A stretch of DNA of 63,800 nt from positions 1 through 63,800 of the forward strand of contig NZ_FNJQ01000021.1 of the NCBI RefSeq assembly GCF_900104055.1. Reading direction: 5' to 3'. The notes beneath the pieces were generated by a model. The model worked only from the letters and a program-made list of their open reading frames with translations. It had not been told where the DNA came from and made no database searches. Origin of the DNA: Pseudoselenomonas ruminantium. Lineage in GTDB: Bacteria > Bacillota > Negativicutes > Selenomonadales > Selenomonadaceae. Every line of letters starts with the position of its first letter. The first letter of the stretch is position 1. The position numbers and the translations under genes are program-made. Shown here piece after piece: positions 3,205-11,252 of this stretch.

Positions 3205-5019
3205 TTATCTATCCTTACCATATTTTGAATATAGTCGTTTCCAGTACCTTGACGGATAAAACTTTTCTCTCCGAGGACCATTTTTTGTATAAACAGTATA
3301 ATACTTTGAACGCATTAATACACAAACACGTTTTGCTCGGCTCACACAGACAAAGCATAAACGATTAGCCTCTGCTAATAATCTAGAATCATTTTTTGCA
3401 TAATATCTTGGAAAACGGTCTTCTTCCATTCCCATCATGACTATAGCTTCAAACTCCAGTCCTTTTGAACTGTGCCGTGTTGAAATAACAATTTGATTTT
3501 CTGGCTTTCCAATTTTAGAAAACTTATCTATTCCATATTCCTGATATTCACTACCAGACATTTCTTTCACCAAATTATCAATATTATCTTTTTCATCCTG
3601 AAAATACGTATTTTGTTCAAGATACTTATCAAAGCATAGTGCTTTCCTTACATAATCAAACCACTGTGTCAATGATTTTTCATAGACTTTGCTTCCCACA
3701 AGAATCTTATACAGACGTTCCCTGATAATCAATTTTTCTTCATCTGTCAAATATGTTGCGCCATTTACTGTTATCAAAGATATCCAAAAATCCCCTATAT
3801 CAGAAAACACGATATCTCTATCCCCTTCAATCCACGAAGCACAGTTCTCAACCCACTTAACAAAATCACTTCGATTAAATTGATGTTTTACAATATAGTA
3901 TGGAATATTCTCTTTCTGACATCTCAATGCAATACTATTACATTCCGAATTATTTTCAACTAGTACTGCTATCTCTTCATAGGGAATATGGTTTTCTACA
4001 AGTCCCGGAACAATTCTTTTAACAAAATATTCTATTTGGTCATCCAACTCTTCGCTTACTTCTATAAATTTGTAAACTGCATTTTCATTTTCTCTTGTTT
4101 TTGCAACATAACCACGCTGTTGATTTAACACAAGTTCTGATCCGTCAATAATGTCTTGGTTGCTTCTATAGTTATTTAATAAAGTTATTTTCTTAACATC
4201 AGGTCTGTCAGCTAGTTCAATTAAATAATCAGGAACTGCTCCCTGAAATCCATATATTGATTGATCCGGATCACCAACAGCAAAGAATTTAATTTTTGTT
4301 TTATCTATAAGCGCAAGAACCATTTCATGAAGTGGTCGCCCCAAATCCTGATATTCATCAATTAACAACCACGGATATTTTGCTGCTATACACTCTCTAA
4401 CATAAGGTTTTTCCTGCAGTAACTTTGTAGACTCTATAATAATTGTTTCATAATCAATGACACCGGCCTGATTTAAAAGTTTTTCATATTCGTCAGCTAT
4501 TATCTCTGCGATTTTATCTCTGTCAACACTAATATTACTTACTCCAGAAACACTTAGCATTCTTGTACAATTCATTCTCCCAATTTTAAAATATTTGTTA
4601 TCACACTCAACATTTTTCTTTGCTGTCTCAAATAATTGTGTTCTTTGTTTTTCTGAAGCAATTCTTATCGGCGTTGGGATATTTAATGAATATACATCAC
4701 TAAATTTGCCAAGTATCTCCGTGAGACAAAATGAATGTACAGTACCAAGAAATATGTTATTCCCCCTTACTAAGCCTAATTCTTTTAGTCTCTCTGTAAA
4801 TTCTCTTGCAGCCTCTCTACTATATGTTAAACATGCTAAACCACGAGGTTCAGCAATTACACTATTTAACAAATGCATGGCTTTTAAAGTCAATACAGTT
4901 GTTTTTCCACTTCCCGGACCAGCTAATACAACTGTATTACTTTGACTTTCAAAAGCAGCCTTCTGGTATTCATCTTTTTCAATTCTACTTAATTTTTCAA
5001 TATAGGTCGTCGTACTCAT
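3205..5019 (-). CDS. gajB: Gabija protein GajB, UvrD-like helicase
   Basis: Superfamily 1A helicase of 604 residues. Visible motifs in order: Q-motif region near the N-terminus, Walker A AGPGSGKT (about residues 33-40), Walker B LLIDEYQDLG, motif III GDPDQSIYGFQGA, motif V STRHSSKGLEFEA and motif VI CVSRAKRV. In Gabija defence GajB works with GajA in a large supramolecular complex that nicks phage DNA. The ATG overlaps the gajA stop by 4 bases (ATGA), so the two are translationally coupled. The gene is AT-rich like the rest of the island. It is somewhat longer than the founding GajB (about 500 residues). A generic UvrD helicase next to an OLD nuclease is the same thing by definition. Confidence 0.85.
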   Translation of the reverse strand: MSTTTYIEKLSRIEKDEYQKAAFESQSNTVVLAGPGSGKTTVLTLKAMHLLNSVIAEPRGLACLTYSREAAREFTERLKELGLVRGNNIFLGTVHSFCLTEILGKFSDVYSLNIPTPIRIASEKQRTQLFETAKKNVECDNKYFKIGRMNCTRMLSVSGVSNISVDRDKIAEIIADEYEKLLNQAGVIDYETIIIESTKLLQEKPYVRECIAAKYPWLLIDEYQDLGRPLHEMVLALIDKTKIKFFAVGDPDQSIYGFQGAVPDYLIELADRPDVKKITLLNNYRSNQDIIDGSELVLNQQRGYVAKTRENENAVYKFIEVSEELDDQIEYFVKRIVPGLVENHIPYEEIAVLVENNSECNSIALRCQKENIPYYIVKHQFNRSDFVKWVENCASWIEGDRDIVFSDIGDFWISLITVNGATYLTDEEKLIIRERLYKILVGSKVYEKSLTQWFDYVRKALCFDKYLEQNTYFQDEKDNIDNLVKEMSGSEYQEYGIDKFSKIGKPENQIVISTRHSSKGLEFEAIVMMGMEEDRFPRYYAKNDSRLLAEANRLCFVCVSRAKRVCVLMRSKYYTVYTKNGPRREKFYPSRYWKRLYSKYGKDR

Positions 5020-6986
5020 TCATCTACTTTCGTATAAATATATTCAATGGCATTCTTTACATAATCCGGACAGTTATCAGCAACACATTTTCCTGAGAAA
5101 ATCTGAGCAAATCTTCCCTTTCCAACACTCTGGTCTTCGATTCGTCTTAAGCAGAACTCATAATCTTGATTCCTCAATCTATTTTTAAAGTTATTCTGCT
5201 TTCGATTGCTTTCAACTAACTGATTAAAAGTGTCGGTAAAAGCTCTTTCACCATCTTCTGTAGACGTGCATTCCATCATGTCAACCTCAAACGTATATTT
5301 ACCAATAAAATATCCACGTTCTGAAAAATGTAAATCTAAATCAGTATTTTCCGGCACACTATCATTCAAAGCTTCAAACGTTTTAATGGCATTTTCCATT
5401 CCGAGTGATCCATATGTATCATTATCTTTTACATCTTTTTCCATTACATGATAGTTTCTAGTCGACTCCTCTCCATCCTCAGTATTTTCAATATAGAAAT
5501 CACCATCTGTTATAACAGAATACGGTATACTAAGAGACTTTAGCATCTTCATATACGGTTTGAAATTTGTACAATTAATATTACAAACTACTATTCCCTT
5601 CTCATCCAGCGGTTTGCCTATTAATTCAGCAAATTTAGGAATAATGTATTCTTCCGCAATACCTTCGACAAGTATCACGCCTTTTCCTAAAAATATTTCA
5701 CCACGTTTAACGTCGAGATAACGCTCAACGTCTAAAAATTCTCCGTCTATCATAGGCATACTTGCTGTAGAATGAGCAACTGTGCTCCCTGACTCTTGAT
5801 GCAAATGTACCAATGACTTAATTGGAGCTACCGAAGTAATATGCGTTGAATGTGTAGTCAAGAGAATAGGAAATCCGTTTCGATTAATAACATCTTTATA
5901 TATTAACCGCTGATAAACTGGATGAAGATGTGCTTCAGGCTCCTCGATGGCTAACAGAGTAACTGCATTATTTCCATGTCCATTGTCTGTCATAAATGTA
6001 TACAATGCAGCATAATTCTCTTCGCTTATGTCAGTTCTTAACACATAATTTCCGCCTGCATTTGGAATATAGCATTCACCTAATATTTCACTATTTTCCT
6101 TTGTTAACAGTTCCGAATATTCTATACCAGAAACAAAAGTTGGCACCGTTTTGTCCTTCAGCATCTGAAGAACCAGCGAAATATATAAAATATTATCTAG
6201 TCCCAAACTAGAATCTGATACAGAGCGATTTGCCATCAACATTTTCAGGGAGCCTAATACCCTTGTTGGGTCCACCTCCATAGCCTGTAACGAAATATCA
6301 TAGTCATGATTTCCAAGAATTTCCGAAAAACGTTCATTGATATGCATTGTCATATCATTGATTTCATCTAAGTTTAAAACACGATCGCCACATTCTTTAT
6401 ATTCACTTGCTATATTTTCAAGAACTTCTTTACTGATTTTATAATCATCAAGCATCTTTTTTACTGGAGATTTTTTGCTATTTCGTAAATCTACTTCTAC
6501 ATCTCTTAGTGCCTTAATAACTTTTATATTAAGATACTTTCTTTCTCTCGAACCAAATTTTCTCGACATATTATCACGCATATATACTTCATATTGGTAT
6601 TCTTTATTTCCAAAATCATCAATATGTGGAAAGAACTTATAGCTTAATAACAGGGCCTCATTTCCTTCGTCATCCAAAACAGTTGCATCAGATAACATTG
6701 TCATTACTGCAACATTTCTTCTGTAATTACTAATATAAATCTGAATTAAAATCTCCTGGTTGTTCTCCATAGGATTTTCAAGAGAATCATTAAAATCACT
6801 TTCAGACAGCATTCTATCTTCATCTGAAAGTGAAGGATCTAAAATCAGCTGCAAAGCTCTGATAAAATTAGTTTTACCAATATTATTCTCACCAACGATT
6901 ACTGACTTGTGCTGCAAATTAACATCTAAGTCCTTAAAGTTTCTATAATTCTTTATGACCACTCTAGATATATATAAACTGTCCAT
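5016..6986 (-). CDS. gajA: Gabija protein GajA, OLD-family ATPase/TOPRIM endonuclease
   Basis: Class 2 OLD protein of about 656 residues. The ABC-type ATPase half shows Walker A GENNIGKT (residues 32-39), a Walker B AIEEPEAHLHP and the switch His in LLTTHSTH. The C-terminal TOPRIM nuclease half shows the metal-binding Glu in VILVEGIAEE and the acidic VITDGDFY. In characterised Gabija systems GajA is a site-specific nickase held off by NTPs and released when phage replication drains nucleotides. Two ATGs are possible at 6992 and 6986. GAGGG at 6993-6997 abuts the first but sits 6 bases from the second, so I prefer 6986. It overlaps gajB by 4 bases. Confidence 0.88.
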   Translation of the reverse strand: MDSLYISRVVIKNYRNFKDLDVNLQHKSVIVGENNIGKTNFIRALQLILDPSLSDEDRMLSESDFNDSLENPMENNQEILIQIYISNYRRNVAVMTMLSDATVLDDEGNEALLLSYKFFPHIDDFGNKEYQYEVYMRDNMSRKFGSRERKYLNIKVIKALRDVEVDLRNSKKSPVKKMLDDYKISKEVLENIASEYKECGDRVLNLDEINDMTMHINERFSEILGNHDYDISLQAMEVDPTRVLGSLKMLMANRSVSDSSLGLDNILYISLVLQMLKDKTVPTFVSGIEYSELLTKENSEILGECYIPNAGGNYVLRTDISEENYAALYTFMTDNGHGNNAVTLLAIEEPEAHLHPVYQRLIYKDVINRNGFPILLTTHSTHITSVAPIKSLVHLHQESGSTVAHSTASMPMIDGEFLDVERYLDVKRGEIFLGKGVILVEGIAEEYIIPKFAELIGKPLDEKGIVVCNINCTNFKPYMKMLKSLSIPYSVITDGDFYIENTEDGEESTRNYHVMEKDVKDNDTYGSLGMENAIKTFEALNDSVPENTDLDLHFSERGYFIGKYTFEVDMMECTSTEDGERAFTDTFNQLVESNRKQNNFKNRLRNQDYEFCLRRIEDQSVGKGRFAQIFSGKCVADNCPDYVKNAIEYIYTKVDE

Positions 6987-7042
6987 TATCATCCCTCAAT
7001 TCGTCGTTATATTTAGGTTAAATATCTTCTTATGCGCATATA

Positions 7043-8061
7043 TTACACAATCAATTCACTCAATCCGCCATAGCATGTCACGCATGCGCTTTTTCTTGCT
7101 CTTATAAGCGCAACATAAAGCAGACACTTCTCTCCTGTTCTGAATTCCTCAAGAGAAATATCATCTTCAAAGTCTGCTCTTGTTCCAAAAGGAAGTACCT
7201 TTTTGTTTACTGCTACCGCAAAGACATGATCGAACTCAAGGCCCTTTACTCTATGCATGGTTGCAATTCTTACACCTCCAAGAGAGCGATCATCAGTCTT
7301 GTTTGCCTTGATTTCAAAGGACTTAATTCCAGCCCTCTGCAATCCTGCAATATAGTTATCAAGCAATTTGTGAGTTCTTGCTACGATACAGATATTTTTC
7401 TGCTCTACGCCAGTAGATTCCAATTCATGGATTCTTTTTACCAAGTAATCGAGTTCTTCCTCCGGAGTTGCAAACTCCTTAATCTCAGGTTTATCTCCAT
7501 GCGTAAGAGACTGTCATCCCTTACTGTTATCATAATCCTCATCTAAATCATCAAAAGAAACTCCATTAAGCAATCCAAATGCAAACTTACGGATTTCTTC
7601 TGTAGTTCTATAATTGATTCTCAAATAGCTACTTCTTCCACGGACATTGATTCCACATTTTGAAAGAACAGCCTTATTTCTATAGATTCTCTGATGTGAG
7701 TCACCAACAATGAAAATATCATTCTGGTGTTCATCTCCTGCAAGCGCTATGAGCAATCTATATGCACTTGGGCTAAGATCCTGACCTTCGTCCACGATAA
7801 TAGATGTATACTGGCCTGTAAGTTTTTTGTTTTCAAGAATCTTTCGACACTCATACATAGCAGTCTCTACGTCACGCTGCAGCTTTTCGTTCATGATATT
7901 TTGATATTCATCAAATACATCCCATATCTGCATACGAACTTTTCTATCGAGACGCACTCCTCTGCCAATTTTAGGAGCTTTGCAGTATGATACTTTGTCA
8001 TATACTTCCTGAGCTTGAACTACCTTAACCCACTCATCTTTATAGAAGTTTTCTACAAAGC
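7043..8061 (-). pseudogene. Broken UvrD-like helicase
   Basis: Two minus-strand segments are parts of one superfamily 1 helicase. The upstream one (to 7514) has SIIVDEGQDLS (Walker B), FIVGDSHQRIYR (motif III) and LRINYRT (motif IV). The downstream one (7444-7043) has IATMHRVKGLEFDHVF (motif V) and LYVALIRARKS (motif VI). They are in the same frame and separated only by a TGA at 7514-7516; readable sequence (QSLTHGDKPEIKEF) connects them. The N-terminal part with Walker A is gone: the reading frame runs back to about 8061 and there meets a recombinase fragment. It differs from gajB and is not its duplicate. Not expected to be functional. Confidence 0.8.
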
Positions 8062-8322
8062 TTAGGTCTCCAATGCCTTGACTATGGTGGACTGATAGTA
8101 TTTTAAGGTTCGTTCACTACAACCTTCTACCTTTTTAGCCGCAATAAACATTTCCACAAACTCATCATTGCTTGTCCCCGTATCATTATCTACCATACTA
8201 CCATCTGTGACTACTTTATTCGACAGGCATTCGGTCAATTTTTCACGGAGGCGCATCAACTGTGCATTATCCAAATAGGGAAGCATCCCCTGCACAATTT
8301 CGGTGATAAGGTAATCTTTCAT
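8062..8322 (-). pseudogene. N-terminal stub of an hsdS-associated tyrosine recombinase
   Basis: This 86-residue ORF (MKDYLITEIVQGMLPYLDNA and onward) matches the N-terminal helical domain of the phage-integrase-like recombinases that sit beside hsdS genes in phase-variable type I R-M loci of Firmicutes. The core-binding domain is recognisable (FVEMFIAAKKVEGCSERTLK, then YYQSTIVKAL). The whole catalytic domain (Arg..His-x-x-Arg..Tyr) is missing; the frame hits TAA at 8062-8064, where helicase sequence takes over. It has a Shine-Dalgarno (GGAAAAG) before ATG 8322 and lies just downstream of hsdS on the same strand. It is probably a deletion remnant; a short expressed peptide is possible but unlikely to act. 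Confidence 0.72.
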
Positions 8323-8384: not shown

Positions 8385-9479
8385 TTAGCCAAAATAATCT
8401 TGCATAAGTTTTGCCTTTAGCGTCTGTAACGTTTCAATACTCTGCTGAATAGCAAGTTTCGATTTGTCGGTGAGTTCGACAAAGGAAATATATTCGTTTT
8501 GAAGTTCACGAGGCGGTACTAACACTTTGAGGCTCTTAATAGCATCAAAGTTTAACCCTGCTTTTACAGCCGATTGATTTTTTGTATCAAATTGCCGTTT
8601 TCCTGCATCGCTTTCCATAAAATAAGAAACATATCCCGGATTGATTTCTTCTTTCTTCAATCGTATGCACGTGAGATGCTGATTGATGTATGCTCCGCGT
8701 TCTTCAAGCTCTTTAGATACAACTCCAGTTCTCCCTAAATCTGCCGTAATGCTTATAAGCAAGTCACCTTCACGAACCTTTGTCCGTTTCGCCTCAGCAT
8801 TGTCTGGTGGAGTCACATATTGCACATTTTCCAAGGTAATACGATTATTTTTCACATTCTTGATGGTAATGAATATCTCCCCGTTATCAGAGAAATATTT
8901 TGACCAGCCTCGTGAACCAGAGGTTAGAAATTCTATATATTCATCGAGAGTGTGCTCTGCCCATCCCATCGGATTTGTCACCGGGTCACCAAACATCTCA
9001 ACAAACCGTGATTTGACAATATCTTCCATCAAGGCCTGTTTTAGCTGATATTTACATATTAAAGCATCAACTCTATCTAAGATGTTAACTTTTTCCCGTT
9101 GTTCATCTAATGTGCAGATATGAATATCAGCGTCAGTAATATTCGATAGTTTTATATACTTAATAACTCCGCCGATAGCATCACTTCTAAGCCTCTCAAC
9201 ATACTTTTCCATAAATCTATACAGATATGGCACCAAAAGAACATTTTTGTCATTGCTTTCAATAATATATGTTCGTTGGTAGGCATTGAATTTACCATCA
9301 TAATATTTTACATTTAAGTCACCATTTCCTGCAACCAATACACATTCACAATCGTAATCATATCTATTAATTCTCAGACTATTAACAGAGCAAGTAAAAA
9401 AGGGATATTCCCCATTTTCATCAGCTGCATTGGCATCCAATTTGCCTGTTTTTACTGATACATAATCTCCTAAACGCAT
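8385..9479 (-). CDS. hsdS: Type I restriction-modification specificity subunit HsdS
   Basis: DNA-recognition subunit of a type I R-M complex, 364 residues. Two target-recognition domains (about 1-145 and 170-325) are each followed by a conserved helical spacer: one around KQALMEDIVKSRFVEMFGDP and one at the C-terminus, AIQQSIETLQTLKAKLMQDY. Together these give the pseudo-dyad layout of HsdS. It would dictate the sequence methylated by HsdM. AGGAG precedes ATG 9479. Base composition is AT-rich like gajAB and unlike hsdM, hinting at separate ancestry. A second HsdS C-terminal tail survives at 2819-2926. The length is near the low end for the family but both half-repeats are present. Confidence 0.9.
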   Translation of the reverse strand: MRLGDYVSVKTGKLDANAADENGEYPFFTCSVNSLRINRYDYDCECVLVAGNGDLNVKYYDGKFNAYQRTYIIESNDKNVLLVPYLYRFMEKYVERLRSDAIGGVIKYIKLSNITDADIHICTLDEQREKVNILDRVDALICKYQLKQALMEDIVKSRFVEMFGDPVTNPMGWAEHTLDEYIEFLTSGSRGWSKYFSDNGEIFITIKNVKNNRITLENVQYVTPPDNAEAKRTKVREGDLLISITADLGRTGVVSKELEERGAYINQHLTCIRLKKEEINPGYVSYFMESDAGKRQFDTKNQSAVKAGLNFDAIKSLKVLVPPRELQNEYISFVELTDKSKLAIQQSIETLQTLKAKLMQDYFG

Positions 9480-9572
9480 TTCTTCTCCTCTATCATTACA
9501 TCTGGCTATGGTTCCCTACTCTACAGAAATGCCACCTTGCCAAAAGTATTATCACGCTGGGTGCACCCCCGA

Positions 9573-9765
9573 GCGTGGCAGGCGACAACTGACTGTAGCG
9601 TGGAGCACAGGGCGTTAAGAAACTGTTTTTTGCCATACCTCTGCTCTAGCGGGAAAAGTCTACTGTTTGAGCATAGCGAGTTTTGACTTTTCACGCTAAT
9701 TAATTAAGGGCAAAAAACAGTTTTAGCCAAGGGCTCAAGCGAAAGGCAGATGCCGCCTGCCACGC
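9573..9765. other. Nested inverted-repeat element between hsdM and hsdS
   Basis: A non-coding 315-bp gap (9480-9794) contains three nested stems. Outer: GCGTGGCAGGCG (9573-9584) with CGCCTGCCACGC (9754-9765), perfect 12 bp. Middle: AAACTGTTTTTTGCC (9620-9634) with GGCAAAAAACAGTTT (9709-9723), perfect 15 bp. Inner: 9648-9660 with 9685-9697, 12 of 13 pairs. Together they fold into one long imperfect hairpin on either strand. No credible ORF lies here. It could be a miniature inverted-repeat element, a structured RNA or a recombination scar; a reverse transcriptase that would make it a retron is absent. Confidence 0.7.
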
Positions 9766-9794
9766 GCCCAACTGCCTCGAACCAGTCCCGCGTA

Positions 9795-11252
9795 CTATTT
9801 CAGCATCTCCCGCAGCTTTTCCATATCCTCACTGATGGACAAACTAAGCTCGTCCAACTTCGTCATCAATTCCAACGTACTGGGATATTCCACCGGCACA
9901 TACTCAATTTCCTTATACTTATTGATGGACAAGTCATATCCATTCTGCCGGATCTCCTCCACCGGCACAAAGAAACTCTGCTCCGTGCGCTTGCGGCCTT
10001 CTTCCTGTTCCAGATTCTTGAACCGGGCGATAATGTCAGGAATATCGTTCTCCTCAATCTCCTGCCGCTTGTCATCAAGGCTGTAGCCGTCTGCCTGCAT
10101 ATCGTAGAACCAAACCTTGTCCGTACCGCCTGCATTTGTCTTGGTAAAGAAGAGTATTGCCGTGGATACCCCTGCATAAGGCTTGAACACGCCGCTGGGC
10201 ATGGAGACCACTGCCGTCAATTTGTTGTTATCCACCAGTTCCTTGCGCAGAGCCTGATGAGCCTTGGACGAACCAAAGAGCACGCCATCGGGGACAATAA
10301 CCGCCGCTCTGCCGCCCAGCTTCAGGATACGCAGGAACAGGGCGAGAAAGAGCAGCTCTGTTTTCTTGGTCTTGGTAACGCGCAGCAGACTTTCCTCCAC
10401 GGTTTCATTGTCCAGAGAGCCTTTAAATGGAGGATTGGCCAGACAAAGGGTATAGAGTTCCTTATCGGGATTATGCTTGGAAAGGCTGTCTTTATAGTCA
10501 ATGCTGGGATTTTGCACACCATGAAGCATCATGTTCATAGTACCGATGCGCAGCATGGTGGGGTCCGTATCAAAGCCATTGAACATGGTCGTATTGAAAT
10601 GCTGGGCCTGTTCATCATCCAGCAGCATATCCCCATGATGTTTACGGATAAATTCTTCTGCGGCTACTAAAAATCCTGCCGTGCCCATCGCCGGATCTAC
10701 CACAATATCCGAAGGCTGCGGCGCCGCCATCTCCACCATCATCTTGATGATATGGCGCGGCGTGCGGAACTGGCCGTTGATTTTGGAAGAAGCCAGCTTG
10801 GACAACATGTACTCATACAGGTCACCCTTGCTGTCTTCTTCATTCAGTTCCAGCTTATCGATGCCCTCAATGATCTTCGCCAGTTTGTCCGGTGCAGAAA
10901 TCTGGAAGGTCGCATCCTTCATAAAACGGGTGTAGGAAGCATCATCATCGGGATGCAGATTCTTGATAAAAGGGAAAATCTCATCCTGCATGAGCTGAAA
11001 CTGTACGGCCGGCGCTAAATTCTTAAACTTGCTCCAACGATAATTCTGCTGCTCCGGGCCAAAGATTTTCTCCTCATGCTCAAAGCCCAACAGCGCCGCA
11101 TTTGCTTCGTTCTCTGTCTCTATATCATCAAGCTGCTTGATAAACAGCAGGTAAGTAAACTGCTCGATAACCAACAGCGGATTCGTCAGTCCTCCCGTCC
11201 AGAAGGTATCCCAAATCTGGTCTACTTTATTTCGCTCTTCGCCTACTAACAT
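9795..11252 (-). CDS. hsdM: Type I restriction-modification methyltransferase HsdM
   Basis: N6-adenine methyltransferase subunit, 485 residues. It has the N-terminal HsdM helical domain (about 1-150), the SAM-binding motif I DPAMGTAGF and the catalytic motif IV NPPF in CLANPPFKG, so methylation should be possible. It is preceded by GGGAGGAT at a proper distance from ATG 11252. It is upstream of hsdS in the same direction, but separated by 315 bp containing a nested inverted repeat. Its GC content resembles the chromosomal core more than hsdS does. No hsdR is found in the window, so this is either a methyltransferase-only locus or the restriction subunit lies elsewhere or was lost. Confidence 0.93.
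   Translation of the reverse strand: MLVGEERNKVDQIWDTFWTGGLTNPLLVIEQFTYLLFIKQLDDIETENEANAALLGFEHEEKIFGPEQQNYRWSKFKNLAPAVQFQLMQDEIFPFIKNLHPDDDASYTRFMKDATFQISAPDKLAKIIEGIDKLELNEEDSKGDLYEYMLSKLASSKINGQFRTPRHIIKMMVEMAAPQPSDIVVDPAMGTAGFLVAAEEFIRKHHGDMLLDDEQAQHFNTTMFNGFDTDPTMLRIGTMNMMLHGVQNPSIDYKDSLSKHNPDKELYTLCLANPPFKGSLDNETVEESLLRVTKTKKTELLFLALFLRILKLGGRAAVIVPDGVLFGSSKAHQALRKELVDNNKLTAVVSMPSGVFKPYAGVSTAILFFTKTNAGGTDKVWFYDMQADGYSLDDKRQEIEENDIPDIIARFKNLEQEEGRKRTEQSFFVPVEEIRQNGYDLSINKYKEIEYVPVEYPSTLELMTKLDELSLSISEDMEKLREMLK

Follow-up and report, generated by a model that had tools for sequence, protein, structure and literature searches.

A nested hairpin between hsdM and hsdS

hsdM, for a type I methylase, and hsdS, for the specificity subunit, both lie on the minus strand and are separated by a gap of 316 nt which contains a large nested hairpin (Table 1). 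The initial annotation had placed in this gap two perfect outer stems and an imperfect (12/13) inner one. We recovered the outer stems at exactly the same coordinates, and the inner stem is present as well. The + strand of the hairpin, on which the loop reads CTGTTTGAGC...GCGAGTTT, is antisense to hsdM.

Table 1. Features of the hsdM–hsdS region, in window positions (R1, covariance model described in the text)
Feature	Position	Strand	Remarks
Whole nested hairpin	9573..9765	+	193 nt; R1 match 9589-9741 +, 158.3 bits
Outermost 5' arm	9573..9584	+	exact 12/12 pairing with 9754-9765
Outermost 3' arm	9754..9765	+	partner of 9573-9584
Asymmetric internal loop GCGTTAAG, conserved	9612..9619	+	
Middle 5' arm	9620..9634	+	exact 15/15 pairing with 9709-9723
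Inner 5' arm	9647..9660	+	13/14 pairs with 9685-9698, counted by eye
Apical loop CTGTTTGAGCATAGCGAGTTT, conserved	9663..9683	+	
Apex GCATAGC	9671..9677	+	2-bp stem and triloop; ATA in the hsdM copy, consensus GNA
Inner 3' arm	9685..9698	+	
TTAATTAA, recurrent across the family	9700..9707	+	in the 3' internal loop
Middle 3' arm	9709..9723	+	partner of 9620-9634
GCCTCGAACC, instance of the recurrent 3'-flank motif CNCGAANC	9774..9783	+	between element and stop codon; motif by eye
hsdM	9795..11252	-	Pfam N6_Mtase/HsdM_N; stop at 9795, 29 nt past the 3' end of the element
hsdS	8385..9479	-	Pfam Methylase_S; start at 9479, 93 nt from the 5' end of the element

Folded as RNA, the 193 nt reach -85.4 kcal/mol on the + strand (z -6.74) and -82.3 kcal/mol on the - strand (z -7.67), and none of the 200 shuffles equalled either value. 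However, a perfect arm of 16 nt appeared in three of 200 mononucleotide shuffles of the whole gap, so a single long arm is not decisive. The decisive evidence for the element is the existence of homologous copies with covariation.

A Gabija defence pair (3205-6992, minus strand) lies beside the methylase and specificity genes and consists of an OLD-like GajA (658 aa, PADLOC E 4e-204) and a UvrD-like GajB (604 aa, PADLOC E 3e-210). A second UvrD-like helicase (7043-7957, minus strand) is split into two separate ORFs and is apparently a broken gene. The 86-aa ORF adjoining hsdS (8062-8322, minus strand) has a weak likeness to a phage integrase N-terminus, below the cut-off (E 0.06), and a search around hsdS for inverted repeats of at least 16 nt found none. 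An IS21-type istA/istB pair was recognised by Pfam at 163-2452 on the plus strand.

A structure-conserved family

A DNA search of the source genome with the element gave seven rows. Since one of these is the reverse strand of the element itself, they correspond to six distinct places. The same search found matches in 12 of the 22 genomes of the genus. Twenty-eight Selenomonas cores were aligned and analysed with RNAalifold, which gave 48 pairs, 32 of them with double changes, and the covariance model R1 was built from this alignment. R1 matches 21 of the 22 genus genomes, with up to 60 match rows in a genome. Under stricter filters it matches 52 of the 189 genomes in the taxonomic family, which has 30 genera, 13 of them with a match. 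The per-genome figures are match rows from a capped number of scored candidates and may count one palindrome on both strands, so they are not exact copy numbers. The window (the whole 63,800-nt stretch of DNA analysed) holds a single R1 copy.

Covariation was evaluated on 116 R1 matches (113 distinct), including the hsdM–hsdS copy (L001). Pairing was found in 95.3% of the cells, and both sides had changed in 38 of the 48 pairs. The covariation score was 0.601, compared with 0.170 (sd 0.005) for shuffled alignments and at most 0.089 for slid structures; the alignment of copies (A4) was made on a model built from 28 of their own kind and therefore leans toward the structure. Compensatory changes exceed those expected by chance, as is characteristic of a structure-conserved element. 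The initial annotation had taken the hairpin for something beyond an ordinary terminator, and the further copies with covarying stems agree with this view; the absence of both covariation and other copies, which it had set as a refutation, did not occur.

In the common architecture, a GCGTTAAG/TTAGC internal loop separates GC-rich outer arms from an A/T-rich middle stem, which is followed by an inner stem and a loop; the apex of this loop is a 2-bp stem bearing a GNA-type triloop. Elsewhere in the taxonomic family, in other genera, the loop is C..GTYCAAGCGAAGCGCG, with C-G replacing T6.G18 (alignments by eye). A pyrG-side copy in the source genome has lost its inner part.

The apex pair in the Selenomonas copies is GC in 85 cases, AU in 27 and GU in one, while the neighbouring C-G pair is invariant, which supports the 2-bp stem and triloop. 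Outside Selenomonas, the variable position of GNA is occupied by A (59), C (31), T (26) and G (8) (n=124; loci picked with N free). d(GCGNAGC) is a DNA mini-hairpin of exceptional stability, and such mini-hairpins have been used in published work. The apex of the family is of this type. DNA-parameter folding of short loop oligonucleotides did not give a stable apex; to our knowledge, GNA loops are not modelled specially in the parameters used.

These data firmly show that the hsdM–hsdS hairpin belongs to a widespread family of long nested palindromes. Dispersed palindromes are already known as a class. A description of this family was not found in the open-access literature, so far as its accessible text goes, where matches looked unrelated or like primer and vector sequences, and the family is apparently unnamed. 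Its position, pairing and conservation are unusual.

Position of the copies relative to genes

For the position of copies in Selenomonas we retrieved 80 regions from six genomes, a sample of the copies drawn from among the matches listed. R1 recognised 115 oriented elements there, 112 of them distinct. Among the 110 copies with genes on both sides, the gene orientations were (-,-) in 49 cases, (+,+) in 29, convergent in 29 and divergent in just three. The gene on the 3' side points at the element in 78 of the 110, with a median gap of 34-38 nt. Where an element lies near a stop codon (79 genes), it is antisense to the gene in 64 cases and sense in 15. All 25 pairs of copies less than 800 nt apart are arranged head-to-head.

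Outside Selenomonas the position rule is weak. In the mixed set, from which 68 of 129 occurrences were left out (edge, inside an ORF, or far), the 3'-side gene points toward the element in 36 cases and away in 25, and 10 of 61 arrangements are divergent. None of the 28 Flammeovirga copies is divergent. Close pairs at cross-phylum loci are head-to-head in seven of the 11 counted. The orientation can also change in place: loci L206 and L223 carry the core in opposite orientations with respect to their flanks (by eye), and the element behind rbr is flipped in one genome (G017).

The genes flanking the copies in other bacteria are generic: 114 proteins, taken from 171 candidates, fell into 187 Pfam families, none of which occurred in more than three proteins. 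In Selenomonas, the same element follows pyrG, uvrA, the rubrerythrin gene (rbr) and many other unrelated genes. Regulation specific to HsdS, as suggested in the initial annotation, is therefore rejected.

Elements in the place of intrinsic terminators at pyrG and rbr

The 3' end of pyrG was located in 21 of the 22 genus genomes, and R1 finds an element there in eleven. In the ten genomes lacking it, our script called an intrinsic terminator in all except G008. Ten of the eleven genomes with the element were scored (G013 was left out): six have no terminator, three have a weak 7-bp candidate (G006, G009, G010) and one has a candidate further off (G002). The regions scanned were 200 nt for the genomes without the element and 420 nt for those with it. 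rbr was likewise located in 21 of 22 genomes, nine of which carry the element. No terminator was called within 130 nt in any of the eight scorable genomes of this group, and the 12 genomes without the element include six with clear terminators near the stop codon, two with farther candidates (G019, G020) and four with none.

uvrA was located in all 22 genomes, with seven intact and two interrupted elements recognised by R1. The script called no uvrA terminator in any of the 22 genomes, with or without the element, so this gene gives no support for terminator replacement; in several genomes the next gene follows closely. In the two interrupted uvrA elements (L352 and L348, from G011 and G012), insertion-sequence-like ends (TGA..TGCTCCC) break the loop at one and the same position, and half-matches that begin at a common query base in the genus DNA search suggest that more elements are interrupted.

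Over all fetched genes, terminators were called in 14 of 103 genes without the element, compared with 18 of 309 shuffled sequences, and in 3 of 73 genes in a stricter first scan. Too few terminators are thus detected among crude ORFs for genome-wide statistics to be usable. Neither strand of the element shows a GC hairpin directly followed by a U-run (by eye for the hsdM copy, by script for orthologues). Overall, at pyrG, and less fully at rbr, the elements stand where element-free relatives have an intrinsic terminator.

At the three loci measured, the orthologous cores are strongly conserved. Mean pairwise identity of the core is 0.872 at pyrG (11 genomes), 0.923 at uvrA (seven genomes) and 0.943 at rbr (seven genomes), close to that of the 300 nt on the gene side (0.882, 0.894 and 0.897, respectively). 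The corresponding 5' flanks have identities of 0.61, 0.583 and 0.649, and random 100-mers gave 0.571 with the same aligner. Since the cores at the three loci are coding-like while the 5' flanks are near random, these copies are not decaying MITEs.

Spread across phyla and mobility

The apical loop CTGTYTGAGCGNAGCGAGTTT is found inside hairpins of Bacteroidetes, Betaproteobacteria, Clostridia and other bacteria. Among one-per-species genomes, at least 119 stretches contain the 21-nt loop; carriers, by title and among the matches listed, include Flavobacteriia, Bacteroides, Parabacteroides, Flammeovirga, Ralstonia, Variovorax, Noviherbaspirillum, Desulfobulbaceae, Clostridia, Nitrospirales and a Vogelbacteria MAG. 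Viral contigs gave two matches. The distribution is patchy: of 398 genomes sampled within the phylum of the source organism, 9 carry the loop; the reversed control pattern gave none among the matches listed for these genomes. At least 8 of the 12 positions beside the loop form Watson-Crick pairs in 103 of 119 distinct cross-phylum occurrences, and at least 10 of 12 in 43, versus two and none, respectively, with shuffled flanks. R1 matches 97 of 100 cross-phylum loci at E<=0.01, but as the loci had been chosen by the loop these matches are not independent; nine matches lie away from any exact loop. R1 also matches 15 of the 16 genomes reached through the loci. A 35-nt query had no match in E. 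coli, and phages gave nothing beyond short weak matches.

Many copies in Bacteroidetes and Betaproteobacteria are accompanied on the 3' side by another conserved hairpin, which could form a pseudoknot (by eye). In four Burkholderiales plasmid records this 3' tail alone was matched; on a Variovorax paradoxus plasmid (L403, 2501-2613) it occupies an unannotated gap flanked by convergent genes, 58 nt short of where a transporter gene ends. A cobalamin riboswitch found in Flammeovirga (L410, 123-304, minus strand) is separate from the element.

Some lineages carry many similar copies. The two Flammeovirga genomes gave 117 and 129 R1 match rows, with copies about 85% alike over about 390-400 nt. 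A Peptococcaceae MAG lineage (G391) has 36 loop matches with closely similar cores and like ends, ATTCGTAG...CTACGAAT, which means that the family has moved there. Many similar copies were found at contig ends in Peptococcaceae (L307-L316, L088, L097, L110), likely a recent burst. Since the G391 contigs break in the loop, boundaries and target duplications could be read from halves alone, except in L088 and L097. At pyrG, uvrA and rbr both occupied and element-free sites were seen, but these are too diverged for the junction to be read. Accordingly, neither a target duplication nor a clean empty site was found in the diverged loci or among the half-copies that prevail in G391.

The presence of candidate mobilising enzymes does not follow copy number, and RAYT, integron integrase and reverse transcriptase were all rejected as the mobiliser. 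The Y1 transposase (Y1_Tnp, PF01797, RAYT) is present in 13 of the 22 genus genomes; the nine without a match include G005, G007 and G014 with 49-52 R1 match rows, and G003 has one RAYT match though no R1 match. The integron integrase model TIGR02249 exceeded its cut-off in none of the 22 genomes, with weaker matches in all of them, as generic tyrosine recombinases give. RVT_1 was found in nine.

A selfish mobile palindrome of MITE or REP kind, having no function for the host and persisting at gene 3' ends where insertions are tolerated, would explain the dispersed copies, the patchiness of the loop, the Peptococcaceae burst and the Flammeovirga expansion. We consider this account rather doubtful, as it sits poorly with gene-like conservation of the three-locus Selenomonas cores between near-random flanks, and neither a transposase tracking the copies nor, at the diverged junctions, a target duplication or clean empty site was found. 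The suggestion of the initial annotation that the hairpin is a miniature mobile element thus holds for its origin, while the coding-like cores are unlike a neutral miniature transposon.

The location behind stop codons, the prevailing antisense orientation and a fold conserved more than the sequence also resemble integron attC sites, in which the folded strand is antisense to the gene and structure outlasts sequence (PMC2727003, PMC3053210, as far as their available text goes). However, no integron integrase passed the cut-off in the 22 genus genomes, the sampled loci have ordinary chromosomal genes rather than cassettes beside the element, and attC core sites were not recognised by eye. An attC-like single-strand recombination site placed behind genes is therefore very improbable.

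DNA or RNA

In the helices of the + strand, the GU:AC ratio is 112:49 in the 112 Selenomonas copies, 54:28 in the 116 mixed copies and 13:12 in 28 Flammeovirga copies. Counted more loosely, across the arms in full, the ratio was 320:343; counted per model column, near-constant G.U columns included, it was 294:48. For comparison, 26 tRNAs from the same loci gave 44:0 (tRNAs were found by ARAGORN, which itself favours paired stems). The Selenomonas and mixed sets favour GU over AC about 2:1 on the + strand, so the two strands are not equivalent. In the 5' flanks of 112 copies, promoter-like sites showed no enrichment (20 toward the element and 20 away from it, with 14.2 expected). In our reading, which falls short of proof, these data make the element look more like folded DNA than like an ordinary RNA, the + strand being mildly preferred.

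A structured RNA made from the + strand, either a small RNA or an antisense 3'-UTR element, agrees with the strong covariation, the excess of GU over AC and the pseudoknot-like 3' tail of many Bacteroidetes and Betaproteobacteria copies. It seems unlikely, as the 5' flanks lack promoter enrichment and wobble pairs are far fewer than in tRNA. Rfam gave no match in 9480-9850 at E<=1, and at the gathering score no element was matched in the window, in a set of 18 loci or in a set of 20 loci. Of the structured RNA controlling HsdS proposed in the initial annotation, the structured RNA part may stand to this extent, and the role specific to HsdS is not supported.

The palindrome could also be a DNA-topology site in the manner of BIME/REP, extruding at gene ends or binding a topoisomerase or nucleoid protein there. 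The preference for 3' ends and convergent genes, the uniform head-to-head arrangement of close Selenomonas pairs, the d(GCGNAGC)-type apex and wobble counts so different from those of tRNA would fit such a site; the twofold preference for GU on the + strand would not. We regard it as another improbable explanation.

Relation to known elements and proposed role

The family shares features with several known systems. GTAG/CGTC REPs are 20-40 bp long and carry a GTAG or CGTC tag, and CGTC repeats have no dedicated transposase, according to the available text of PMC3733652. Like these REPs, our elements are dispersed extragenic palindromes, often located behind genes, present in several phyla and forming dimers; unlike them, they have a core of about 150 nt and a total length of 193-400 nt, are nested and have a loop of their own. 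The 193-nt element also falls outside the definition of RAYT-mobilised REPs given in that text (a 20-40 bp palindrome with a GTAG end), and RAYT presence does not track the copies. With MITEs the element shares terminal inverted repeats, lack of coding capacity and multiple copies, but its arms differ between copies and are yet compensated, no target duplication was found at the diverged junctions, and the cores at three loci are too well conserved. Like intrinsic terminators, the hairpin is located tens of nt behind stop codons and takes the place of a terminator at pyrG and rbr; however, it is about ten times longer, has no U-run behind the fold and can flip its orientation.

We tentatively favour a palindrome of mobile origin that has been retained at the 3' ends of genes, where it would act as a folded boundary, a possible reading, if less than an even bet, in which the function is deduced from position and conservation. 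The palindromes would have spread as mobile DNA, moved by a putative machine, and the surviving Selenomonas copies may have been kept as 3'-end boundary elements. The fold, present either on both strands or only on the one antisense to the upstream gene, could stop or hold transcription complexes; alternatively, it may absorb transcription-driven torsion. It would thereby do the work of the intrinsic terminator that these sites lack. For the copy behind hsdM, keeping hsdM transcription apart from hsdS would be no more than a side effect.

More broadly, we speculate, with considerable reserve, that these giant palindromes are DNA-level structural elements that cross phyla. Bearing the d(GCGNAGC)-type cap and often placed head-to-head, they would have spread between phyla and become, in some lineages, bidirectional 3'-end boundaries which replace intrinsic terminators and which a putative conserved host factor recognises as folded DNA.

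Dispersed palindromes are usually small, lineage-bound and regarded as mobile debris. The present family is a large one with a single apical motif across several phyla, and its orthologous copies show gene-like conservation at the tested Selenomonas loci, where they take terminator positions. If the boundary role is true, the family would represent an unrecognised way of ending or insulating transcription which is missed by terminator finders; if it is false, this would still be a mobile palindrome with a mobiliser to be sought. The covariance model and the natural experiment at pyrG and rbr make the question directly testable.
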